A program made the translations under genes and the position numbers. 64,000 bases of DNA, from the NCBI GenBank assembly GCA_903907865.1, contig CAIVPR010000044.1:310001-374000 (forward strand), given 5' to 3'. The notes under the pieces are model-generated. The model did no database searches. It was not told where the DNA came from and saw nothing but the letters and a program-made list of their open reading frames with translations. The stretch comes from an uncultured Acidobacteriia bacterium. GTDB lineage: Bacteria > Acidobacteriota > Terriglobia > Bryobacterales > Bryobacteraceae. Shown in pieces: positions 3,180 through 18,764 of the stretch. Numbering within the stretch: the stretch's first letter is position 1; each line of letters begins with the position of its first letter.

Positions 3180-5282
3180 ATGCGTCCATTTCTACGTTCG
3201 TTGTTTCCGGCATTGCGCGATGCCGCCAAGAGTTCCATTCAGAAGATCAATCGTCTGCGGGCAGAGTACGACCCCCTCCCGGACGCCGAGTTGCGCTCCA
3301 TCTGCGCCAAAACCTCCGAGCTTGAGACCGTACTCGCGATAACCGCCGTCATGGCGAAGCGGGTTCTCGGCCTCGACATGTTCGACGTCCAGTTGAGAGG
3401 CGCGCTCGCCCTCGCAAGCGGCCGCATCGCGGAGATGCAGACAGGCGAAGGCAAGACCCTCGCCGCCGTCCCCGCCGTCGTCTGGTACGCCAAGAAGGGG
3501 CGTGGCGTCCACGTGATGACAGTGAACGACTACCTGGCGCGCCGCGACTCGCTCTGGATGGGCGTGATCTACCAACGTCTCGGCTTCTCGGTCGGCTGTA
3601 TCCAGCAAGGGATGACACCCGAGGAACGCAAGGCCGCCTACGCCTGCGACATCACCTACGCCACGGCCAACGAAGTCGGTTTCGACTACCTCCGCGACCA
3701 GTTGGCGCTCCAGCCGTCCGAACAGGTCCACAGGCCCTTCTCGTCGGCGGTGATCGACGAGGCCGATTCCATCCTGATCGACGAGGCCCGCATCCCCCTC
3801 GTGATCGCGGGCGGCGAGTTCGAGGAGGAAATCCTCGCCATCCGCGCCGACCGGCTCGTGCGCCAACTGCACCCGGGCCTCCACTACCAGGCCGAGCAGC
3901 ATTTCCGCAATGCCACGTTGACCGACGAGGGGATCCGCCGCGTCGAAGCCGCTTTCGGGTGCGGAAATCTGTTTGCCGAAGAGAACCTCCAGATCCTCAC
4001 AGCAGTGCAGGACGCCGCCCACGCCCACATGCTGCTGCATCGCGATGTCGACTACATCGTCAAGAACGGCGCGATCGAGTCGGTAGACGAGTTCAAGGGC
4101 CGCGTCGCGCAAGACCGCCGCTGGCCCGCCGGACTCCATACCGCCGTCGAGGCCAAGGAGGGCGTCGCCATGAAGACCCAAGGGCGGATTCTGGGCTCGA
4201 TCACGCTGCAGAACCTGATCGCGCTCTACCCGCATGTCTGCGGCATGACGGGCACCGCCGCCACCCAGGCCGATGAATTCCTCAAGATCTACGATCTGGA
4301 TGTCGAGGTGATCCAGCCCAACCGCCCTGTCATCCGCATCGACCATCCGGACTCGGTCTACCGCACGCGCCGCGACAAGGAGGAGGCACTGCTGGCGGAG
4401 ATACGGACCGTGCACGCGACCGGTCGACCGGTGCTGGTGGGCACCGCGAGCGTTGGCGAATCCGAGCGCCTCAGCCTGCTGCTGGGCGACGTGCCCCACC
4501 AAGTCCTGAACGCCAAGCACGAGGAACGCGAGGCCGTCCTGATAGCCGGGGCCGGGGAGCGCGGGGCGGTAACGATCTCGACGAACATGGCGGGCCGGGG
4601 CACCGACATCCGGCTGGGCGAAGGAGTGGCTGCAATCGGCGGCCTGCACATCGTGGGCACCAACCGGCACGAAGCACGCCGCGTCGACTTCCAACTCCGG
4701 GGACGAGCGGGGCGGCAGGGCGATCCGGGCAGTTCGCGCTTCATCGTTTCGCTGGAGGACGACATCATGGTGCGATACGCCGAGGACATCGACTGGCACC
4801 AGTACACGCCGGAATCGGTGCAGCGCATCGTGGAGGGCAAGAACCTGGAGATCCGGCTGTTCCTGCAGAAGTACGAGGGGACACTGGAGGGGCAGCGGAA
4901 GATCCTGCACGGATACCGACAGGAGGTGCTTACGGGCGATTCGCCGGAGTTCGAGCGCACGGTGGCGTTGCGGGTGGTCGACGATTTGTGGTCGGAGCAC
5001 CTGGCAACGGTGACGGAACTGCGCAACGGGGTCCATTGGGTTTCCTGGACCGGCCGCGACCCGCTGCATGCATTCCTGCTGCGGATCGACGGCATGTTCC
5101 GGGAACTGATGGAGATCCTGCCGGAGGAGATTCAGACGCGGATCGAGGAGGCGCGGGACAAGGGGATCGACCCGGCGCAACGGGGTGCCACCTGGACATA
5201 CCTAACTACGGACAATCCGTTCGGGAAGCTGAGCAACCGGATCCTCAAAGGACTGACCACGCTGCTCTACGGGAAGAAGTGA
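3180..5282 (+). CDS. secA: preprotein translocase ATPase SecA, short form
   Basis: A 700-residue SecA motor that drives unfolded preproteins through SecYEG. It shows Walker A QTGEGKT at residues 87-93, a DEADSILIDEAR Walker B segment near residue 190, the cross-linking domain, DEFKGRVAQDRRWPAGLHTAVEAKEGV before the VCGMTGTAAT helicase motif, then NMAGRGTDIRLG and QLRGRAGRQGDPGSSRF of the second nucleotide-binding fold. ATG 3180 follows a strong GGGAGGG site, so I prefer it to the open frame from 3111. The protein stops after a short helical wing/scaffold region and lacks the linker and Cys-rich zinc tail of typical 850-950-residue SecA, as in SecA2 or second copies. Whether this is the only secA of the cell cannot be told. 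Confidence 0.93.
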   Translation: MRPFLRSLFPALRDAAKSSIQKINRLRAEYDPLPDAELRSICAKTSELETVLAITAVMAKRVLGLDMFDVQLRGALALASGRIAEMQTGEGKTLAAVPAVVWYAKKGRGVHVMTVNDYLARRDSLWMGVIYQRLGFSVGCIQQGMTPEERKAAYACDITYATANEVGFDYLRDQLALQPSEQVHRPFSSAVIDEADSILIDEARIPLVIAGGEFEEEILAIRADRLVRQLHPGLHYQAEQHFRNATLTDEGIRRVEAAFGCGNLFAEENLQILTAVQDAAHAHMLLHRDVDYIVKNGAIESVDEFKGRVAQDRRWPAGLHTAVEAKEGVAMKTQGRILGSITLQNLIALYPHVCGMTGTAATQADEFLKIYDLDVEVIQPNRPVIRIDHPDSVYRTRRDKEEALLAEIRTVHATGRPVLVGTASVGESERLSLLLGDVPHQVLNAKHEEREAVLIAGAGERGAVTISTNMAGRGTDIRLGEGVAAIGGLHIVGTNRHEARRVDFQLRGRAGRQGDPGSSRFIVSLEDDIMVRYAEDIDWHQYTPESVQRIVEGKNLEIRLFLQKYEGTLEGQRKILHGYRQEVLTGDSPEFERTVALRVVDDLWSEHLATVTELRNGVHWVSWTGRDPLHAFLLRIDGMFRELMEILPEEIQTRIEEARDKGIDPAQRGATWTYLTTDNPFGKLSNRILKGLTTLLYGKK

Positions 5283-5378
5283 AAAACTGCAAATTCCTTG
5301 GCCCTCGATGAAGGCTCCACACGCTTTTATTTCTGGGCCTGTAACACGAACCCGCCTCACTGCACTTGGTAGATGAAA

Positions 5379-5526
5379 GCGGCAAGCGCCGCGAATGCGG
5401 AAGGCTCGGAGGTCGTCCGCGTTGCAGTTCCAGAGGGGAATGGAATTCCTACTCGACCACCCGGGGGTTCGGAGGCCGCCGGGTGGAAGATTTGAAAGGG
5501 GACGCTCGGAGGCGTCCCCTTTTTTT
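5379..5526 (+). ncRNA. candidate structured RNA or secA 3' UTR ending in a terminator
   Basis: The stretch after secA contains consecutive hairpins: GCGGC/GCCGC at 5379-5392 with loop AAGC, GCGGA/TCCGC closing 5397-5420, and an 8-bp stem CCACCCGG/CCGGGTGG at 5457-5486. An intrinsic terminator follows at 5495-5526. No convincing reading frame with coding character crosses it. It could be an independent small RNA or the structured 3' end of the secA mRNA. I see no match to 6S RNA, tmRNA or a riboswitch that I could defend. Confidence 0.35.
5495..5526 (+). terminator. rho-independent terminator
   Basis: An 11-bp stem, AAAGGGGACGC against GCGTCCCCTTT, around a six-base loop TCGGAG, followed by seven T at 5520-5526. 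It faces the plus strand, after secA, and its A-flank lets it also act weakly for the convergent metallophosphoesterase gene that ends at 5539. Confidence 0.9.
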
Positions 5527-5538
5527 ATTGGGTCTCGA

Positions 5539-6930
5539 CTATTTGGAAATGCGGAAGGAATCCACTTCCGCGCCCGTCTCGGAAATCTGCCGGAACTTGA
5601 AAGTCTTGCCGTCGATTTCCACCAGGCTGAACGAGTGCACGTCGGAGATGAACTTGTTGGTGAACGACTGCCAGGTTCCCGGCTGCTTCATCTGCGGGAT
5701 GTCGTAAAGGCCCGCCCCGCCGCCGCCGCTGACGATGTAGATGGGCCCGTTCGGCTTGCCGTTCGCGCCGTCGCCAAACTTGTCGTCCAACGACCATGCG
5801 CCCTCCACCTCGCCCTTGGGACCCTGCTCCACCGGCTTGAACTTCAGCGGAAAACTGCGCTGGTAGTTGTGGACGTGCCCGGCGAACACGACGTCCACGT
5901 TCGCCGCTTCGAAGATGGGGGACAGGTTGCGCATCCATTGGTCGGCGAAGTGCGAATGCGAGGAGTTGAAGCCCGGATGGTGGAAGGCCACGAAGCGCCA
6001 TGTGGCACCGGCCGCAGCGGCCAAATCCTTCTTGAGCCAGGCTTGGAGTTCCGGGTTCCTCCAGTCCATGTAGGTGTTGGAATCGAGGACGGTCCAGTGG
6101 GCGTTGCCGTAGTCGAACGAGAAATTCGCCATCGCCGGGTAACGCGCTTCCGCGGCCTGGCGGAACGCGGGCTGGGCCTCCTCGTGGCCGAGGATCTGGT
6201 GCTGAGTCTTTTCACCCGAGACCTTGGGACCGTTCAGGGGCTGGTCCCAGTACAGGAAGTAGGCCAGGGAATCTGGAAATTTCTGGAAGTTGGCGAGGAG
6301 CGTGTCGTGGTTGCCGGGAGCGGCAATCATGGGCACCGACCGGATCAGCGGCGCGCCTGTTTCCGCACTCGCGGTCTCGGCATTGAAGATGGGGAAGAAC
6401 TTGTCGCGGTACTCCGAGATCCTGCCCGCCGAATAGACGATGTCGCCGGTAACGAAGACGAAGTCGGGCTTGACCTTTGACACCTCGAAGGCAATAGCCT
6501 TTTCGCCGGGTGTGTTTTGGGCCGTATCGCCGAAGAGGGCGAACTTCACGGGCTGGTTGGCGGCCTTGCGGGCGCGGCTGGTGGATTCGAAGACTTGCGT
6601 GCCGCCCTTCAGGACCCGATAGGCGAAATCGCCGCCGGGGACCAGGCCTGTCAGATGTGCCCGGTAAACCAGATGCTTGTCGATACCCGGCGCGTCCACC
6701 AGCGTGGAGTTCGGGGCGGCAACTGCGCGCCACTTGTTGCCATCCTTGGACGTCTTTACCTCCACCGACCATTTGTCGGTATTTTCGACCGTATGCCAGA
6801 GGAGCACGAGGCTCTCCGAGGCGGCCAGTTTGGGGCTATCGCCGAGTTGGAGATAGGGCTTTTCGATGAAAGTGTCGGAAGTCTGCCCGAACGCAAAGAG
6901 GGCGGATAGGAAAAGTATGGCGAGGCGCAT
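5539..6930 (-). CDS. exported metallophosphoesterase, purple acid phosphatase-like
   Basis: A 463-residue protein with a signal peptide (MRLAILFLSALFAFG), an N-terminal fibronectin-like beta domain (residues about 25-120) as in purple acid phosphatases, and a calcineurin-like core. Metal motifs in order: FALFGDTA, FVFVTGDIVY, APGNHD, AFHHPG and FAGHVHNYQRS. All the usual Asp, Asn and His ligands of the binuclear centre are present. It probably hydrolyses phosphomonoesters or diesters in the periplasm or outside the cell. It lies 46 bases downstream of the His/Met-rich membrane protein on the same strand. Confidence 0.88.
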   Translation of the reverse strand: MRLAILFLSALFAFGQTSDTFIEKPYLQLGDSPKLAASESLVLLWHTVENTDKWSVEVKTSKDGNKWRAVAAPNSTLVDAPGIDKHLVYRAHLTGLVPGGDFAYRVLKGGTQVFESTSRARKAANQPVKFALFGDTAQNTPGEKAIAFEVSKVKPDFVFVTGDIVYSAGRISEYRDKFFPIFNAETASAETGAPLIRSVPMIAAPGNHDTLLANFQKFPDSLAYFLYWDQPLNGPKVSGEKTQHQILGHEEAQPAFRQAAEARYPAMANFSFDYGNAHWTVLDSNTYMDWRNPELQAWLKKDLAAAAGATWRFVAFHHPGFNSSHSHFADQWMRNLSPIFEAANVDVVFAGHVHNYQRSFPLKFKPVEQGPKGEVEGAWSLDDKFGDGANGKPNGPIYIVSGGGGAGLYDIPQMKQPGTWQSFTNKFISDVHSFSLVEIDGKTFKFRQISETGAEVDSFRISK

Positions 6931-6976: not shown

Positions 6977-8383
6977 TCAGCGTACGTCGAAATCGAACGC
7001 GCCGGTTTCCACCTTGCCGGCGCGTTTCATTTGGACGAAGACGCGGTAGGACCCGGGGGTCGGAATGCCGTAGGGGAACGAGACTTCGGGGCCCGGATTC
7101 AGTTGGTGCATGCCCATCATGGCGACCGGGGAGGCGATCTGCTCGCTCGCCATCGAGACCGAGCCCGACGGGTGCACGTGCGCAAACACCGTGCCGTCCT
7201 TCTTGACGAATTCGGCGTGGCCGCCCATGCCCATGTAGGGCTCGAGGTCGGGGACGGGTTTGCCGTCGGGCCCGGCCAACAGGAAGGTGTAGAGCTGGAT
7301 CGCCTTTGGGTGGATGGCAGCGGCGGGATCGCGCTTCCAGACCATCTGGTAGCCGCCACCCAGCGGAAAGACGTCGCCGGACGCTGGCGTAGCCCCGCCG
7401 GAGTCGTCGCCAGACAAAGGCGTCCCGTGGATTGCCGGCAGGGTCGCGTTCCCCACCGCCGTCTCGGCGAAACCGTTCTGGTGCACGATGTCGGCATACA
7501 CGTGGTAGTCTCCCGCCGGGATCGACGGGGCCTCCGCCTCGAAAATGCCGGTGTCCTTTGGCTCGGGGTGGAGGTGGAAGATTTGGTCCATGGCGGGCCA
7601 CCTGACGAGGAACAGGTGCATGGGGTGGCCATGGTCGGGGACGAGGTCGTCCAGCTTGCGTAGGTTGAGCCAGCCGGGGTCCGAGAGGCGGATGTCGAGA
7701 TTTGCGCCGGTAGGGGTGACGGTGACGCCGAGCGGCGTGTACATGCGGCGTTCGAAATTGGCGGCGTCATTGGCCCACCACGCGTTGCCGCCCCAGAGCA
7801 TGGCCAACACCATGCACGCGGTGAACGCCATCCAGCCGATCGACTTGCGATCCCACGGCTGGGCGGGAGCACCCGGAGCGAGCCGGGCCTCGCGCACGGC
7901 GGCCCCGACCATTGCCACCATGCCCACTGAGAGGAAAACCATCATCCCGATGAGGAAGTAGGTGGTGGGCTGGTCCATCGGCTTGCTCTTGACGGCGACG
8001 GCGGGCACAGGCACCGGCAACTCTCCGGTACCCTGAGGGCCGACGACACGCACGTGGACCTCCCAGGAGCCCATCGCCATGAGCCAGAGTTGGCCCTCGA
8101 AGTAGTTGCGGTCGGTGACGGAACGGTCGGCAATGTCGGCGACGGGCGGGTGCTTGGCGGCCTCGCCGGTCATGGGGGTGGGGGTGAGTTCGATACGGGT
8201 GACGTCGCCGGAGAGGACGCGGACCTCGATCCGGGCGATGCCGGGGATAACGTCGGGCGGGCGGATGGCGACGAGAAGCGGGTAAGGACCGGCGCTGCCC
8301 TGGAAGAAGACGTCGGGGCTGCCGACATGGGCTTGGGCGGAAAGGGCGATGGCGAACAGGGCCGGGAGGAGTCTCATCCGCAT
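6977..8383 (-). CDS. His/Met-rich membrane protein, probable copper handling
   Basis: A 468-residue protein from ATG 8383 (a second ATG lies at 8377). Order: signal peptide (LLPALFAIALSAQA), a periplasmic beta domain (about 20-150), two membrane helices (YFLIGMMVFLSVGMVAMVG and IGWMAFTACMVLAMLWGG), then a large periplasmic C-terminal part. The last part is rich in metal-ligand patterns: HGHPMHLFLV, FHLHP, YMGMGGHAEF, HVHPSGSVSM and MMGMHQL. Similar H-x-H and MGMGGHA patterns occur in uncharacterised proteins next to copper systems. I infer copper binding or sensing in the envelope; the exact family name is unknown to me. Confidence 0.6.
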   Translation of the reverse strand: MRMRLLPALFAIALSAQAHVGSPDVFFQGSAGPYPLLVAIRPPDVIPGIARIEVRVLSGDVTRIELTPTPMTGEAAKHPPVADIADRSVTDRNYFEGQLWLMAMGSWEVHVRVVGPQGTGELPVPVPAVAVKSKPMDQPTTYFLIGMMVFLSVGMVAMVGAAVREARLAPGAPAQPWDRKSIGWMAFTACMVLAMLWGGNAWWANDAANFERRMYTPLGVTVTPTGANLDIRLSDPGWLNLRKLDDLVPDHGHPMHLFLVRWPAMDQIFHLHPEPKDTGIFEAEAPSIPAGDYHVYADIVHQNGFAETAVGNATLPAIHGTPLSGDDSGGATPASGDVFPLGGGYQMVWKRDPAAAIHPKAIQLYTFLLAGPDGKPVPDLEPYMGMGGHAEFVKKDGTVFAHVHPSGSVSMASEQIASPVAMMGMHQLNPGPEVSFPYGIPTPGSYRVFVQMKRAGKVETGAFDFDVR

Positions 8384-8466
8384 GGTTTGATTATCGGATG
8401 GCGGGATGGGTAGTCCGAATAAGGCCCTCCAAGAATGTGGAGGCATATGGTGATAACCTTGAGCCG

Positions 8467-9972
8467 ATGCGTCACATCCGTCTCCCGGCCTGCCTACTGA
8501 TGTTGCTCCCCTTTACCCTTATGGCCCAGTCCACCCCCTACTACCCCACCAATGGCTGGCGCGAATCGACGCCGGAAGCGCAAGGGATCGATTCCTCCGT
8601 CCTCGCCAAGATGGTGGACGGCATCACCAAGTCCAAGCTGAACGTCCACAGCATCCTGATCATCCGGCACGGGTACGTGGTTCTGGACTCCTATTTCTAC
8701 CCCTACACCCCCAAAGCCACTCATGACGTGGCGTCGGTCACCAAGAGCATCACCGCCGCCATCACCGGCATCGCCATCGACAAGGGCCTGTTCAAAGTCG
8801 ACCAGCCCGTCCTTTCCTTCTTCCCGGACGAGGCCCCGAAAGATCCCGATCCGCGCACCAAGAAACTGACCGTCGGCGACCTGCTTTCCATGCAAGCCGG
8901 GCTCGACTGCGGCTTCCTCCCCGGTGAACGCGAACTGGAGGACATGCGGCGCGGCAACCAGTGGGCGAAGTTCACCCTGGCGCTGCCCGTGAAGTACGAC
9001 CCCGGCACCAAGTTCGGCTATTGCAGTCCGGGTTACCACGTCCTGTCGTCGATCATTTCGCAAACCGCGCACCAGTCGCTGCTGGAGTTCGGCAAGAAGA
9101 ATCTGTTCGCGCCGCTGGGAATCCACGACGTGGCCTGGCCCTCGGACGACCAAGGACGCACGCACGGCTGGGGCAACAGCCATTTCTATCCGCGCGATTT
9201 CGCCAAGATCGGCTACCTCTACCTCCATGGCGGCAAATGGGACGGCAAGCAGATCGTGTCCGAGCAATGGGTGAAGGATTCCATCACCAAGCGCGCCGAT
9301 CCAGGGCGCGGTCCCGACGGCGGCTACGGCTATGGCTGGTGGCTGGACAAGGTCGGAGGGAACGACGAATTCGGGGGCAACGGACGGGGTGGCCAGCGGG
9401 TGGCCGTCTGGCAGGACAAGGACATGATCGTCGTGGTGACCGGGGCGGGCTATCCGGGGACGGCGGTGGGTCCGCCGATCGCAGGCTCCGTGAAGTCATC
9501 CACTCCGCTGCCGGAGAATCCGGACGCCGTGAAGGAGCTCCGGGAGAAAGTGGCCGAAGCGGCGAAGGCCCCTGCGCCGACGCCGGTTTCCGATCTGCCC
9601 GCCCTGGCGGCGAAGGTCTCGGGGGCGGCTTGGGAGTTTCCCCGCAACGCGTCGCGGATCGACGGCCTGCAATTCACGTTCGACGGCAAGACCGAGGCCA
9701 AGCTGAAGGTGAAGTACCTGGGAACGGAGTTGTCGTTCCCCGTTGGGCTGGACGGCGTGTACCGGCTCGGCCCCTGGGGCCCTCTGGGACTGCTGGCCGG
9801 GGCGACCGGGAAGTGGACTTCGGAGACGGATTTCCTGTTGGATCTGAACTTCGTGTCGAACATCAACCATTACTCGTTCGCCCTTCATTTCGAGGGTGAT
9901 AAAGTACAAGCCGTGATCAACGAGACGTCGGGCCTCGCGCGCAACGTCAAAGTGGAAGGCAAGAAGCTTTAG
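8467..9972 (+). CDS. exported serine hydrolase, beta-lactamase/class C family
   Basis: A 501-residue protein from ATG 8467 with a signal peptide (LPACLLMLLPFTLMAQ). It has the S-x-x-K nucleophile motif in HDVASVTKSI near residue 95. The second motif, normally Y-x-N, appears as FGYCSPGYHVLSS, so the Asn position is altered. GYGYGWW and a GGQRVAVW segment near residue 315 fit the third active-site strand. A C-terminal beta domain of about 150 residues follows. Relatives are esterases, D-aminopeptidases or beta-lactamases; substrate unknown. It heads a three-gene plus-strand operon, with the next gene 10 bases away. Confidence 0.85.
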   Translation: MRHIRLPACLLMLLPFTLMAQSTPYYPTNGWRESTPEAQGIDSSVLAKMVDGITKSKLNVHSILIIRHGYVVLDSYFYPYTPKATHDVASVTKSITAAITGIAIDKGLFKVDQPVLSFFPDEAPKDPDPRTKKLTVGDLLSMQAGLDCGFLPGERELEDMRRGNQWAKFTLALPVKYDPGTKFGYCSPGYHVLSSIISQTAHQSLLEFGKKNLFAPLGIHDVAWPSDDQGRTHGWGNSHFYPRDFAKIGYLYLHGGKWDGKQIVSEQWVKDSITKRADPGRGPDGGYGYGWWLDKVGGNDEFGGNGRGGQRVAVWQDKDMIVVVTGAGYPGTAVGPPIAGSVKSSTPLPENPDAVKELREKVAEAAKAPAPTPVSDLPALAAKVSGAAWEFPRNASRIDGLQFTFDGKTEAKLKVKYLGTELSFPVGLDGVYRLGPWGPLGLLAGATGKWTSETDFLLDLNFVSNINHYSFALHFEGDKVQAVINETSGLARNVKVEGKKL

Positions 9973-12046: not shown

Positions 12047-13394
12047 GGTGAGGGCGGGAAAGCTTCTCAAGCGCAACCGCCAACGCCTCTTCCTTGCTGG
12101 AAACCCGGCCCTCCAGTTGGGCGTCTTCGACCGCCGTCAACGCCGCTGAAAACGCCGGGCCGGGCTTGAAACCGGCGGCGATTAGGTCCGCACCGGTGAT
12201 CAGGCGGGTGGGGTGGAGTTCCTCGGGTTCCAACGAGGCCAGCTTTTCGCGGCAGAAATCGTAGTTGTCGAGGGCCCCGTGGCTCGACAGGCAGTCGAGG
12301 CGGTGCAGCGCGAGGTGTTCGTCGAAGGCTGGAAGCCGCAGGAAGCGCTTCAAGCGGCTGACGCGCATTTTCGGAGCGTCGCGGAACTTCATGTGGTTGG
12401 CGATCAGCGCCTCCGCCGCGTCGATGGTCTTGTTGGGGAACTTGAGCCGCTCCATGAGCGCCCGTCCAATCTCCATGCCCTTGTCGACGTGGCCGTCGAA
12501 ACGGATGCGGTCGGCAATGCGGAACGTTGCGGGCTTGCCGACGTCGTGAAGTAGGACACCCAGCGCCAGCTCCAACGAGACTCCGGCGGGCAGGCCCTCC
12601 AACATGATCATGGTGTGGATCCAGACGTCGCCTTCGGGATGAAACTCGGGCGGCTGCTCCACACCCTGGAGGGCGACGATCTCCGGCAGGATCTCCTTCA
12701 GCAGGCCGGAGTCGTTGAGCAGGCTGAATCCGGTCCGCGCGCCGCCCTCGGTGAGGATCCGTGAGATCTCGTCGCGAACCCGTTCGATGGAGACGCCCCG
12801 GACCGCCGGAGCGAGGCGACGCATCGCGTCGAAGGTTGCCGGGTCGATGGCAAATCCCAGCCGCGCCGCGAAACGCACGGCGCGCAGGAGGCGCAGATGG
12901 TCCTCGCGGAAGCGCAGTTCGGGATCGCCGATGGCGCGGACGATACACGACGCGAGGTCGGCGCGGCCCCCGACGAAGTCGAGAACTTCGCCCGAATCGG
13001 GGTCCAGAAAGAGCGCGTTGATGGTGAAATCCCGGCGGAGGGCGTCGGCACGTGGGTCGGACTCGAACCGCACCTCCTCGGGATGGCGACCGTCGGAATA
13101 GCCGAGGTCGCTGCGGAAGGTGGCCACTTCGACCGATTCCCCGCTCTCGTGCACCCCAGCATCATGAACAATGACGACGCCGAAATGCGCGCCGACCTTC
13201 TCGGCTCGGGGAAAAAGGCGTAGCAGGTCGTCTGGCCGGGCGGATGTCGCGACATCGAAGTCCTTCGGCTCGCGGCCCAGAAGCAGGTCGCGGACGCAGC
13301 CGCCGACGAGGTACGCGACATGGCCCGCCGCCCGCAGACGCCCTACGATACTCCGTGCGAGGTTAGTGGCCGCCAAGGTTGAAAATCCAGCCAT
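12033..13394 (-). CDS. cca: CCA tRNA nucleotidyltransferase/poly(A) polymerase family
   Basis: A 453-residue enzyme of the class II nucleotidyltransferase family that adds or repairs the tRNA 3' CCA. The head domain has LVGGCVRDLLLGREPKDFDV with GG at residues 31-32 and catalytic D45 and D47. RRDFTINALF and the REDHLRLLRAVRFAARLGF helix follow. An HD phosphohydrolase motif, LLHDVGKP, sits in the C-terminal half. Family members without experiments cannot be split into CCA-adding and poly(A) enzymes by eye. Its ATG overlaps the end of the DUF3667-like gene by 32 bases, so it is the last gene of a long co-translated unit. Confidence 0.9.
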   Translation of the reverse strand: MAGFSTLAATNLARSIVGRLRAAGHVAYLVGGCVRDLLLGREPKDFDVATSARPDDLLRLFPRAEKVGAHFGVVIVHDAGVHESGESVEVATFRSDLGYSDGRHPEEVRFESDPRADALRRDFTINALFLDPDSGEVLDFVGGRADLASCIVRAIGDPELRFREDHLRLLRAVRFAARLGFAIDPATFDAMRRLAPAVRGVSIERVRDEISRILTEGGARTGFSLLNDSGLLKEILPEIVALQGVEQPPEFHPEGDVWIHTMIMLEGLPAGVSLELALGVLLHDVGKPATFRIADRIRFDGHVDKGMEIGRALMERLKFPNKTIDAAEALIANHMKFRDAPKMRVSRLKRFLRLPAFDEHLALHRLDCLSSHGALDNYDFCREKLASLEPEELHPTRLITGADLIAAGFKPGPAFSAALTAVEDAQLEGRVSSKEEALAVALEKLSRPHPTSS

Positions 13395-14268
13395 GTTCCA
13401 CCATTACCGCCGCAGTAAATGCCAGCACCAGTTCGATCAGTGACAACCACACAATCAGCAGCACGGACTCGAATGTGGTCCGTTTCCAGCCATGCCCATA
13501 TAGTCGGCGCACCGACAGAAACATGTAAACCGCCACCAGAAAAGCGGCTGGCACCTTCAGAAGTTCGACTCGGCCGCCGACGGCGGCCATAACGTACCAG
13601 AAGCTGTAGGTGTGGAACGAGGCGACAAGCTGATTGACAATGAACGGCTGCCTGCGGCGGAACAACAGCCAGACACCGAGCGTGTAAAAGAGCACCGAGA
13701 AGTAGCGGATGCTCGAATAGGCCGTGCGGAAATTGTTGGCAAACTCATGCCGCTCGTGCTCCGCCACGGGCACAAGGTCCTTGCGGTTCCGTGGTGCCGT
13801 GCCCTGGGTGTTGATTTCCACGTCGCGCTTGCCCTTCGCGTCCTCGTAGACCCCCACTTGGAAGTTCATGGGGCCCACTTTGTCATGTACGATGAGCAAA
13901 TTCAGAGCCACCACGATGAGGAAAATCCGCAGTGGGCGGATCCAAGGGGTAATCCGGCCTTTCCAATACTCCTGGGTGAGGAGGCCTGGTTGGAAAAGCA
14001 ATGCCTTGAGGGTGCGGAAGATTTTGCCATCGACATGTACGAACTCATGGACCAGTTCGTGGCCGAAGTGTGCGATGGTCGGGTGGCGTCCCTCGTGCGC
14101 GGCTTGGCCACAGCTGGAACAGTATTCGCCATGCAGAGGAGTGCCACAGTTCAGGCATTCCAGCGGCGCGTCCGTTGAAAGTTCGTGTGGCGTTTCGTGC
14201 GACATCGGGGCGTTCTCCCCATGGTAATGCAGACCAGCCCCGGTTTCTCCCGGCAGGTTGGATGTCAC
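13363..14268 (-). CDS. DUF3667-like zinc-ribbon membrane protein
   Basis: A 301-residue protein. The N-terminus has a zinc ribbon, CLNCGTPLHGEYCSSCGQ, then a conserved-looking FLIVVALNLL helix after EYWKGRITPWIRPLRIF, and further membrane segments (FSVLFYTLGVWLLF, FLVAVYMFLSVR and LLIVWLSLIELVLAFTAAVMV). This architecture matches DUF3667 proteins of unknown role. The start is GTG 14268, overlapping the TGA of the upstream gene as GTGA, a translational-coupling arrangement; ATG 14205 is an alternative. It shares an operon with pdxST and cca, which gives no clear functional clue. Confidence 0.75.
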   Translation of the reverse strand: MTSNLPGETGAGLHYHGENAPMSHETPHELSTDAPLECLNCGTPLHGEYCSSCGQAAHEGRHPTIAHFGHELVHEFVHVDGKIFRTLKALLFQPGLLTQEYWKGRITPWIRPLRIFLIVVALNLLIVHDKVGPMNFQVGVYEDAKGKRDVEINTQGTAPRNRKDLVPVAEHERHEFANNFRTAYSSIRYFSVLFYTLGVWLLFRRRQPFIVNQLVASFHTYSFWYVMAAVGGRVELLKVPAAFLVAVYMFLSVRRLYGHGWKRTTFESVLLIVWLSLIELVLAFTAAVMVEHGWIFNLGGH

Positions 14269-15371
14269 CGGGCCGCGGACTGGTTCAGCAGGCGGACGGC
14301 GAGCGAGCGGGAAAGATTCAGCAGGAACTTTGCGGCCAACTCAGCGTGGCTGGCCAACAACTTCTGCAGGTTTCTCTCATCCAGCACTACAAGCCGGACC
14401 CGTTCGCCCTTGGCGAAGACATCGGCAGTGCGCTTGGTGTCAAGAAGGAGCGCGAACTCCCCGAACATCTCGCCGGCACCGAGCCGGGCCACCAAGGCAC
14501 CATTGGACCGGACGTCCACTGCGCCCTCCAGAATGACGTATGCCGAGCGGGTTCCCTGACCCTTGACGACAATCTGATGGCCGTCCGCGCACTCCAAGAC
14601 TTGGCTGCGGTTGAGGAAGGCGGTCATCTCTTCCTCGGAAAAGCCTTCGAAGGCTCCCGTGTTCTGACGGGGCTGTCCAAGAAACCCGACCGCCTCCATC
14701 CAAGCCGCACGCTCCAAGTCTCCCATGCTGGTGACGGGAGCGTTGTCAGGCAGCAACTTCACGATGGACACGGTCAACACCGGGTCGTCTATCCCCTTGG
14801 AGTAACGGATGATCGGGGACCGGATGGACCGCAAATGCGCCACGTCCGGCACCACGAACACCAGAGGCACCATGATGCCGAAGCCTGCCTGCTCGAACAC
14901 CGGGGCGTAGGGACGGAAGCCGACGGACTCGTAGAGATTCACCAAGTGCGGCTGGCAATCGCAAAACAGCAATTGGAGACCGAGTTGGAACTGGTACTTC
15001 GCGGACTCCGCGATCAGCTTCATCGGGACAGCGGAACCACGATACTCCGGCTTCACCAGGAACCGGATCATGATAGACATGCGGTCCCGTGGCACTACGG
15101 GTACGAAGCGCTCTATCTCGAAACCGTGTTCGAAATGCTCGGGAAACCGATCCGACGTGCCGATCAGCATCGCCAAAGTGCCGACCACTTCGCCGTCCAC
15201 CTCGGCGCACAGAACTTTGGAACGGAGGATGGCCTCGTCGCACAGGATGCCCCGCTCGTGGTCGGCGTTCTCCCGCATGGTGCCCATCTCCAGGCAGAAC
15301 ACTTGGTAGGCGAGCCGGTAGCAGGCTTGGAGCTGCTCCTCGTTGGCCAACGAAACGATGATGTCGGACAT
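14265..15371 (-). CDS. GNAT/LuxI-like acyltransferase fused to a C-terminal cyclic-nucleotide-binding domain
   Basis: A 368-residue two-domain protein. Residues 1-200 look like the N-acyl amino acid synthase/LuxI branch of the GNAT fold: RLAYQVFCLEMG at the start, SKVLCAEVDGEVVGTLAML in the middle and the acyl-CoA motif RFLVKPEYRGSAVPMKLI. Residues about 235-360 are a cNMP-binding domain with GEMFGEFALLLDTKRTADVFA, close to the GE(L/F)AL-x(n)-RTA phosphate-binding cassette of CRP and PKA. I infer a cAMP- or cGMP-controlled acyltransferase. Mycobacterial Pat is cAMP-gated but has the opposite domain order. Substrate unknown. Confidence 0.82.
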   Translation of the reverse strand: MSDIIVSLANEEQLQACYRLAYQVFCLEMGTMRENADHERGILCDEAILRSKVLCAEVDGEVVGTLAMLIGTSDRFPEHFEHGFEIERFVPVVPRDRMSIMIRFLVKPEYRGSAVPMKLIAESAKYQFQLGLQLLFCDCQPHLVNLYESVGFRPYAPVFEQAGFGIMVPLVFVVPDVAHLRSIRSPIIRYSKGIDDPVLTVSIVKLLPDNAPVTSMGDLERAAWMEAVGFLGQPRQNTGAFEGFSEEEMTAFLNRSQVLECADGHQIVVKGQGTRSAYVILEGAVDVRSNGALVARLGAGEMFGEFALLLDTKRTADVFAKGERVRLVVLDERNLQKLLASHAELAAKFLLNLSRSLAVRLLNQSAAR

Positions 15372-15401: not shown

Positions 15402-15791
15402 TTACTGTTGTTCCCGCCGCAGCCGCAACACCAACTGCATCACCTTCTGCTCAATCTCCCCCCGCACGCGTCGGTAGACTGCCGCCGATTTCTGATACGG
15501 ATCCTCCACCTTCCAATCAATCAACTCCTTCGGCGGCTTCCCCGGCAGTCGGTACCCCGACATGTTCACAACGATGTCGTACCGCGCCACCTGCAACGGC
15601 TGGTACCACATCGGTACATGTTGCGAGATGTCGATCCCGGCCTCGTCCATGATGAAGACGGTCTCCGGGATCACGACGTCGACCGGCGATAGTCCCGCGC
15701 TGGTGGCGCGCAGGACGTCGCTGCCGTAATGCTTCGCGAAGCCCTCGGCCATCGGGCTCCGGCACGTGTTTCCGATACACACGAAAAGCAC
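15402..15791 (-). CDS. low-molecular-weight protein-tyrosine phosphatase/arsenate reductase-type protein
   Basis: A 129-residue protein with the phosphate loop VCIGNTCRS (C5, N8, R11) immediately after the start and the general acid D97 in EDPY, the hallmarks of low-molecular-weight phosphatases. The loop and the DP motif favour phosphatase over ArsC, but arsenate reductases of this fold look alike. The start is GTG 15791, only 5 bases after the pdxT stop, which suggests coupled translation. It stands between pdxT and the acyltransferase gene. Confidence 0.87.
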   Translation of the reverse strand: MLFVCIGNTCRSPMAEGFAKHYGSDVLRATSAGLSPVDVVIPETVFIMDEAGIDISQHVPMWYQPLQVARYDIVVNMSGYRLPGKPPKELIDWKVEDPYQKSAAVYRRVRGEIEQKVMQLVLRLRREQQ

Positions 15792-17315: not shown

Positions 17316-18764
17316 TCAGACCATGGCGAAGGCAGACCTCGACGCTTCGTCGCGCGAGCCGGCCGCGTTGCGAATTACTTCGCCCAGAATTTCCACGCCA
17401 CGACGGATCTCGTCGGGCTCAAGACCGGCAAAACTGAGCCGGAGCCCCGAATCGAAGGGGCGCGTCACGGAAAAATAGCGTCCCGGCAGGAAATCGACCC
17501 CCGCCTGCTGGGCGAGGCCCCGCACGGAGCTGGAATCGAGTCCGTCGGGCAGTTCAAGCCACATGTTCATGCCGCCGTCGGGGAGCCGGTAGCGGCATCC
17601 GTAGAGGTGCCGGCGGGCCGAATCCTCCATCGCGCGAAGCTTTTCGCGCCCGGCCGCAACCATGTGCGCCTGGTGGGCGGCAAGCCTGCCGGATTCAGCG
17701 AAGCGGAGGAGGAATGCTTGGGACAACTGGTCGGTGTGGAGGTCGGCCAGTTGCTTGAGCTCGGTGACGCGGGCGATCACCGGCTTGGGGGCGATGATCC
17801 AGCCACAGCGCATGCCGGGGAAGGCAATCTTCGAGAAGCTGCCGAGCAGGATTACGTTGGGATCGAGTGCTTTCAGGCGGGGTGGGGCCCCTCCCGCGTA
17901 GTCGAGTTCGCTGTAAATGTCGTTTTCGATGATGACGGCCCCGGCGGCGCGCGCAATCGAGACGATTTGGCGTCGTGCGGCGGCGGGAATCGTGCCACCC
18001 GTCGGATTCTGGAAGGAAGGGGTCAGGACGACCAGCTTCGCGCCGCGTTCGAGCGCCTGGCGCAGCGAGTGCGGTTCCGCACCCTCCGACCCGACGGAAA
18101 CGCCGATCAGTTCCGCGCCGGCTTCGAGGAACAGGTTTTTCAATCCGGGGTAGACGGGTTCTTCAATCGCGACCTTGGCACCGGGCCGCAACAGGGCGCG
18201 GCGCAGCAGGTCCACCGCTTGCTGGCAACCGTTGGTGATGAGAATGCCGTCCGTGTCCGAGGCCTCGACAGTCCTCCGCATCACGAATTGCTTCAACGGC
18301 TCGTAGCCCGAGGGCGAGCCGATCTGAAGCAACGGGCGGAGTCGGTCACTCTCGAGCACTTCCGTGGCCGATTGGCGGAACTCGTCAACCGGAAACAGTT
18401 TCTCCGCCGGACGCGAAGCCGAAAAGTTAATGGTGCCGGAGCGCCCCGGTGCCGCGGAGGCCGCCGAAGTCGAGGGAGTCAGGATGCGGGCCCAGTTGAC
18501 GGCGTCGGGGGCCCGTTCGGGAAGGCCGCGGACGAAACTTCCCCGCCCCACCGCGCCCTTGATCCACCCGTCGGATTCGAGAAGCTCGTACGCGGCGGAA
18601 ACGGTGGTCCGGTTCAGTCCAAGTTGGCCAGCCAATTCACGGGTTGGCGGCAATCGGTCGCCAGGCAGGATTTCGCCAGTCTCGATGCGGCGTTGCAAGT
18701 AAACACCGAGTTGCCTGTATAGGGGCACCTCGGAGCTTTCGTCGAGTTCAGGCCGCAGGACCAT
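17316..18764 (-). CDS. pdxR: PdxR-like MocR-family regulator (GntR helix-turn-helix plus aminotransferase fold)
   Basis: A 482-residue fusion. Residues 1-80 form a GntR winged helix (VPLYRQLGVYLQRRIETGE, then LPPTRELAGQLGLNRTTVS). The rest is a fold-type I aminotransferase domain with FQNPTGGTIP, a DIYSELDY segment and the PLP lysine in LLGSFSKIAFPG. In firmicutes and actinobacteria, PdxR regulators of this type sense PLP and control pdxST. Its position directly ahead of pdxS supports that role here. The ATG at 18764 follows a TATACT box after only 7 bases, so the mRNA may be leaderless. A long upstream open frame is not part of the protein. Confidence 0.88.
   Translation of the reverse strand: MVLRPELDESSEVPLYRQLGVYLQRRIETGEILPGDRLPPTRELAGQLGLNRTTVSAAYELLESDGWIKGAVGRGSFVRGLPERAPDAVNWARILTPSTSAASAAPGRSGTINFSASRPAEKLFPVDEFRQSATEVLESDRLRPLLQIGSPSGYEPLKQFVMRRTVEASDTDGILITNGCQQAVDLLRRALLRPGAKVAIEEPVYPGLKNLFLEAGAELIGVSVGSEGAEPHSLRQALERGAKLVVLTPSFQNPTGGTIPAAARRQIVSIARAAGAVIIENDIYSELDYAGGAPPRLKALDPNVILLGSFSKIAFPGMRCGWIIAPKPVIARVTELKQLADLHTDQLSQAFLLRFAESGRLAAHQAHMVAAGREKLRAMEDSARRHLYGCRYRLPDGGMNMWLELPDGLDSSSVRGLAQQAGVDFLPGRYFSVTRPFDSGLRLSFAGLEPDEIRRGVEILGEVIRNAAGSRDEASRSAFAMV

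Follow-up and report, generated by a model that had tools for sequence, protein, structure and literature searches.

The window, by which we mean the whole stretch of 64,000 nucleotides that was analysed, contains a gene in which a GNAT acyltransferase domain is fused to a C-terminal cyclic nucleotide-binding (cNMP) domain, and this GNAT-cNMP fusion is a real and conserved feature. The gene lies on contig G000:C44 of a 7.5 Mb genome and among named sequences it is closest to two contigs, L031 and L032, from MAGs of uncultured Acidobacteriia. Both halves of the encoded protein exceed their Pfam cut-offs, cNMP_binding with 51.8 bits against 27.5 and FeeM, with a modest score, at 33.4-35.7 bits against 27; Acetyltransf_5 also matches the GNAT half. 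The features of the window that concern us here are as follows:

14265..15371, (-) strand: coding sequence of the fusion gene (GNAT and cNMP), an open reading frame of 368 amino acids that has orthologues, an ATG start and no internal stop
14877..15326, (-) strand: GNAT domain of the FeeM/LuxI class, residues 16-165 (PF21926, E 4.8e-8; PF13444, E 8.4e-6)
14589..14876, (-) strand: region separating the Pfam domains, residues 166-261, with dN above that of either domain in four orthologue comparisons
14346..14588, (-) strand: cNMP-binding domain, residues 262-342 (PF00027, E 8.2e-14; matches to PKG and to PKA regulatory chains)
14424..14465, (-) strand: phosphate-binding cassette FGEFALLLDTKRTA, residues 303-316, with Glu305 and Arg314, aligned with FGERALLYDEPRTA of Plasmodium PKG
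14196..14262, (-) strand: stretch without blastn alignment to L031 and L032, at the position of their ~1.47-kb decarboxylase gene
13363..14268, (-) strand: DUF3667 protein with a CxxC-type zinc ribbon in its translation (PF12412, E 2e-13)
15402..15791, (-) strand: low-molecular-weight phosphatase/arsenate-reductase-like protein (PF01451, E 2.1e-22), ending 30 bp upstream of the fusion gene

The GNAT domain precedes the cNMP domain and there is no N-terminal cNMP domain ahead of it, which is the order that the original prediction had read from the gene and had described as the reverse of mycobacterial Pat. This reversal is borne out by the excerpted text of a review, where cAMP domains are N-terminal to the GNAT (type III) and where we found no case of a C-terminal cNMP domain (PMC8556138). 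Nor did full-text searches find a paper that joins an N-acyl amino acid synthase or FeeM with a cyclic nucleotide-binding domain, although domain databases may list the architecture. As far as the excerpts of the review go, a FeeM-type GNAT with a C-terminal cNMP domain would appear to be a variant on a known cNMP-GNAT theme, the reported cAMP-GNATs being cNMP-first. Structure prediction for the window protein and its L031 and L032 relatives returned a mean pLDDT of 37.6, and the model is unusable.

Distribution of the fusion gene in Acidobacteriota

Of the 19 genus genomes, five, the window genome among them, have a full-length fused orthologue, and the orthologues of the other four share 89, 88, 66 and 62% identity with the window protein. 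Among 299 genomes drawn from the class (E up to 1e-12) the full-length gene was found in three, namely the window genome and two of its genus, and in two further genomes only the GNAT part was matched. Of 396 genomes drawn from the phylum (E up to 1e-10), 33 gave a match: five, including the window genome, have the fused gene, and in the remaining 28 the match is confined to the cNMP side, starting no earlier than residue 202. One genome (G648) was matched over residues 11-283 in the phylum draw and full-length in the search of the class of G534, in which 10 of 148 genomes match, nine full-length (one with an in-frame TAG) and one in the GNAT only. The order of G499 contributes five fused genes in four of seven genomes. 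In these searches 6 (299 draw), 5 (396 draw) and 13 (148 genomes) first-look candidates were scored per genome, and misses are possible.

The family set used below consists of 18 full-length members free of stops, drawn from 17 genomes in six families of Acidobacteriota, and leaves out the TAG-bearing sequence. FeeM and cNMP_binding are both matched in all 18 (Pfam, E up to 0.001), some of which share only 24-32% identity with the window protein. The sequence left out (L118, 2117-3199, (-) strand) is a fused member with one in-frame TAG, which points to decay of this copy or to an error in the sequence. On a tree the fewest changes needed are three, a single origin of the fusion is still compatible, and all five GNAT-only rows have long branches.

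Beyond the phylum, no fused member was found in viral contigs, in plasmids or in one peptide-pattern scan of genome contigs. The viral contigs gave 59 pattern matches and no relatives, the plasmids gave no matches, and the genome contigs, with the window protein as sole query, gave 97 pattern matches and three relatives, two of them full orthologues. The third (L033, 5026-6546; Geobacteraceae) has a mechanosensitive-channel domain and a C-terminal cNMP domain, without a GNAT match. FeeM itself occurs in 1 of 14 control genomes. A second FeeM protein is encoded in the window genome (L065, G000:C10:1868-2344); it scores 84 bits, far above the window gene, and Pfam at E up to 10 lists nothing besides FeeM in its frame.

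Comparison of the window gene with L002 gave a dN/dS of 0.083 overall, 0.074 for the GNAT and 0.082 for the cNMP part, values which are rough because the synonymous distance is high (0.87). The least conserved part between the window protein and its four orthologues is the middle of the inter-domain stretch (alignment columns 203-242). Counted over 365 positions, the differences to L004 are 123 for the window, 118 for L002 and 117 for L003, and those to L005 are 139, 137 and 139, respectively. The window row is thus at most slightly faster than its sisters. The fusion gene is under purifying selection and, as far as sequence can tell, is maintained in the window lineage.

Conserved residues of the two domains

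A profile was built from 14 GNAT domains of the family (11 fused and three GNAT-only) and run against the PDB. Its best solved match is the AHL synthase 3p2f (E 2.1e-8), after which come ElaA, the autoinducer synthase 5w8c (third-ranked, E 2.3e-5) with 5w8a, the N-acetyltransferase 3fb3 and dopamine/arylalkylamine acetyltransferases; the 3p2f and 5w8c matches extend over most of the GNAT. Set against this, none of the profile's 47 PDB matches is to a chain with the name FeeM. The AHL synthase match, together with the Pfam FeeM match, upholds the first assignment of the GNAT as LuxI/N-acyl amino acid synthase-like. Within the family, Tyr22, His38, Asp45, Arg103, Arg111, Cys139 and Tyr147 are kept in all 18 members and Asp37 in 17, and the invariant Arg103 is aligned with the SRF/SRY arginine of 3p2f and 5w8c. 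Residue 21 is Ala in all five members of the window clade and Arg in all 13 others, where the profile-structure alignment sets it against an Arg of AHL synthases that we take to be essential in those enzymes.

The usual GNAT CoA or pyrophosphate loop (P-loop) motif is R/Q-x-x-G-x-G/A, and the aligned letters of none of the 18 members fit it. This, together with the replacement of Arg21 in the window clade, makes the use of acyl-CoA uncertain, and the lack of the motif throughout the family fits an ACP donor; acyl-ACP would be at least as likely a donor for these GNATs as acyl-CoA. In the excerpted text of a further paper, N-acyl amino acid synthases of the Brady/Clardy kind have long-chain acyl-ACP as donor (PMC8762209).

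In the C-terminal half, the RTA of a nucleotide-binding site, to which the original prediction had drawn attention, does lie inside a cassette, FGEFALLLDTKRTAD (residues 303-317 of the window protein), where Glu305 and Arg314 are also present. A search of solved structures aligned the fourth nucleotide domain of Plasmodium PKG (FGERALLYDEPRTA) with this cassette without a gap. The window protein thus shares the FGE..ALL..RTA cassette with the cGMP/cAMP domains of PKG and of PKA regulatory chains, but its domain is joined to an acyltransferase and not to a kinase. Across the family alignment Glu305 is kept in all 18 members. Arg314 is likewise kept in all 18 when the alignment is allowed a one-residue gap ahead of the cassette Arg in nine members, whereas in a 13-member alignment without such a gap it is Lys in L071 (12 of 13). 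With regard to the loss of cofactor-binding residues as a check on the original prediction, the nucleotide site stands, with its Glu and Arg retained, but in the GNAT no member has the P-loop motif and the window clade has Ala in place of Arg21.

The R[TS]A triplet itself is found in 13 of the 18 (18-member alignment), and the cassette has drifted at this point to RMS after VGE in L036 and L069, to RRH (RRRHT) in L103, to RMA in L070 and to RLA in L071. In the window clade, FGEFALLL..KRTAD, with both Glu and Arg, is present in five of five. The cNMP match of L103 is 25.3 bits, below the Pfam cut-off of 27.5, and this, with the drift in L036, L069 and L103, suggests that cNMP binding need not be family-wide. 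Possible sources of the ligand are two class III cyclase domains in the window genome, which at 181 and 74 bits both exceed their cut-off; this family is present in 5 of 14 control genomes.

The partner decarboxylase and the proposed function

In four of the five genus orthologues (L031, L032, L072 and L073) the next gene downstream encodes a PLP amino acid decarboxylase of 472-489 amino acids (gene ~1.47 kb; the L031 copy at 7104-8573). Its start overlaps the stop of the fusion gene as ATGA in L031, L032 and L072, and in L073 the listed start follows directly after that stop. The decarboxylases of L031 and L032 share 98% identity, and those of the other pairs of loci 61-72%; PF00282 is matched in the three of four that were scanned (E 9.3e-65, 1.3e-69 and 2.6e-68), and the L031 translation contains HKW, presumably the lysine motif of a PLP decarboxylase. 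Among solved structures the decarboxylase comes closest to 4obu (E 2.8e-71), with DOPA, tyrosine and further decarboxylases ranked next, and as no NCBIfam match reaches its cut-off the enzyme is not assigned to one amino acid. A palmitoylputrescine synthase beside a decarboxylase may be a precedent for such a pairing, and the proposal below does not lean on it.

The cognate decarboxylase is absent from the window locus when compared by blastn with L031 and L032, the alignment ending at 14263, past the fusion gene, and resuming at 14195 in the DUF3667 gene. At an identity of at least 61% the decarboxylase occurs in exactly those four of 19 genus genomes, and other matches listed are at or below 38%. 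The window genome has one match at E up to 1e-20, a paralogue with about 30-31% identity, and since a match of some kind is found in all 19 genus genomes, a distant decarboxylase says little. Because two more distant orthologues also carry the gene, the simpler account would be that a whole operon partner was lost in the window lineage.

We propose that the window protein is, quite possibly if not yet probably, a single-chain N-acyl-amide synthase with a cyclic nucleotide regulatory domain. The partner decarboxylase would make an amine of the aromatic or diamine type, and the GNAT would transfer a fatty-acyl group, with acyl-ACP as likely donor, onto that amine or onto an amino acid. Class III cyclases of the same cell would supply cAMP or cGMP, which at the C-terminal domain would open or close the active site, such that the output of lipid amide could track the second messenger without new transcription. 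As the linked decarboxylase is gone from the window genome, the enzyme there would need an amine from elsewhere, or would acylate an amino acid. Acyl transfer to an amine is also the chemistry expected from FeeM and the N-acyl amino acid synthases, with which the window GNAT shares a score over the PF21926 cut-off; the window protein differs from these in its extra C-terminal cNMP domain, in the partner decarboxylase of its genus, in the replacement of Arg21 in its clade and in the modest score. For the Acidobacteriota family as a whole, we would only tentatively suggest N-acyl-amide synthases switched by cAMP or cGMP, with clade-specific substrate-making partners, that form a gated module for lipid-amide signals; the partners seen are the PLP decarboxylase in the window genus and a haem-oxygenase-like enzyme or one conserved protein in other subgroups. 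If true, an intracellular second messenger would act through a single enzyme directly on a lipid-amide signal, which may be intercellular, without a transcription factor as go-between, and cNMP control would have arisen in a different class of GNAT and in a second order of domains. The decarboxylase pairing offers a concrete guess at the substrate.

The N-acylation half of the proposal rests on the enzyme class and the partner enzymes, and the cyclic nucleotide half on the cassette. As cNMP-fold domains are not always cNMP receptors and can serve without cNMP, the cassette backs cyclic nucleotide control the more weakly, and the VGE..RMS of L036 and L069 and the RRRHT of L103, with its match under the cut-off, are consistent with an N-acyltransferase free of such control, whose cNMP domain is structural or has another role, such as dimerisation or the sensing of another small ligand. 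We regard this as unlikely in view of the invariant cassette Glu and of the intact cassette of the window clade. A different division of labour is suggested by the occurrence of cNMP and GNAT domains in one chain, which is shared with mycobacterial Pat and the type III GNATs (MtPat Rv0998 and MsPat) and is described for type III in the excerpts of the review cited above (PMC8556138): the protein might be a cAMP-regulated lysine acetyl- or acyltransferase of proteins with its domain order swapped. However, the GNAT is of another class, matching FeeM/Acetyltransf_5 and AHL synthases, and is missing the GNAT CoA motif, while the genus neighbours are small-molecule enzymes. Moreover, Pat-type enzymes are cNMP-first, and the match to the NCBIfam Pat model is limited to the cNMP part, with 27.8 bits against a cut-off of 460, which makes a Pat-like acetylation less likely, and we consider it improbable. 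The original prediction had left the choice between an acylated signal and protein acylation; the decarboxylase-type gene neighbourhood favours, in our reading, small-molecule N-acylation over Pat-like protein acetylation, so that the former part would stand and the latter is disfavoured.

The resemblance to LuxI-type AHL synthases also has to be considered, as 3p2f and 5w8c are the top and third solved matches of the GNAT profile, with the SRF-type Arg aligned, and two of 13 members scanned together match Autoind_synth (PF00765; best E 2.3e-6), of which L038 is over the cut-off (27.8 against 24 bits); L037 has NCBIfam AHL-synthase matches that are weak and below cut-off. That the window protein is itself a divergent acyl-homoserine-lactone synthase is nevertheless hardly credible, since Autoind_synth is not among the six Pfam families listed for it at E up to 1, Arg21 is lost in its clade, it carries a cNMP domain and a decarboxylase partner would be unsuited to S-adenosylmethionine chemistry. 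An acyltransferase for lipids or cell-envelope amines, of the ornithine-lipid or PEP-CTERM-associated type, would agree with weak OlsB-type and exosort_acyl NCBIfam matches, but at 22.2 bits against 350 and 14.7 against 112 for the window protein these are far under cut-off, and such a role is decidedly improbable.

Other neighbours of the fusion gene

Names of neighbouring genes rest on Pfam or on pairwise matches, and no names are given for the neighbours of L116 and of the 3.6-kb L118. A Haem_oxygenas_2 gene lies upstream of the fusion gene in L075 (10455-11093) and L076 (10647-11276), and L074 and L077 have one conserved upstream gene in common. Short motifs seen by eye had made the latter a candidate adenylate-forming ligase, which was rejected as Pfam gave no match at E up to 10; of the four matches that a PDB profile search of this neighbour returned, all weak, the best has E 0.013. 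No biosynthetic partner was seen to recur beyond close relatives in the largest subgroup (L070, L071 and L103-L109). In two members of this subgroup an NTE-like protein with two cNMP stretches and a patatin esterase adjoins the fused gene, in L114 (7053-9305) on the opposite strand, and in L115 (10509-12731). The close relatives L078 and L079 share a long neighbourhood that includes an MMPL-type transporter (scanned in L078), and the close-relative pairs L112/L113 and L115/L116 have other genes in common.

In the window, a (-) strand gene at 17316-18704 encodes a GntR and class I/II aminotransferase (MocR-type) regulator, probably, as we assume, the PLP-pathway regulator PdxR, and lies directly upstream of pdxS/pdxT. 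That pdxST lies next to the fusion gene raised the idea of a connection, through PLP, with the lost decarboxylase. The pdxST arrangement is present in L031 and L032 (tblastn), and none of the 14 other window genes tested was found in L072 or L073 (tblastn), so the adjacency is taken as chance. The listed GTG start of the DUF3667 gene overlaps the stop of the fusion gene by 4 bases, and a later start is possible. On the other side, in L031, a TylF-type methyltransferase frame (5124-6029, (-) strand; PF05711, E 1.1e-14) separates the phosphatase gene from the fusion gene, and a similar frame is found at this position in L032, the gap there in the window being 30 bp.
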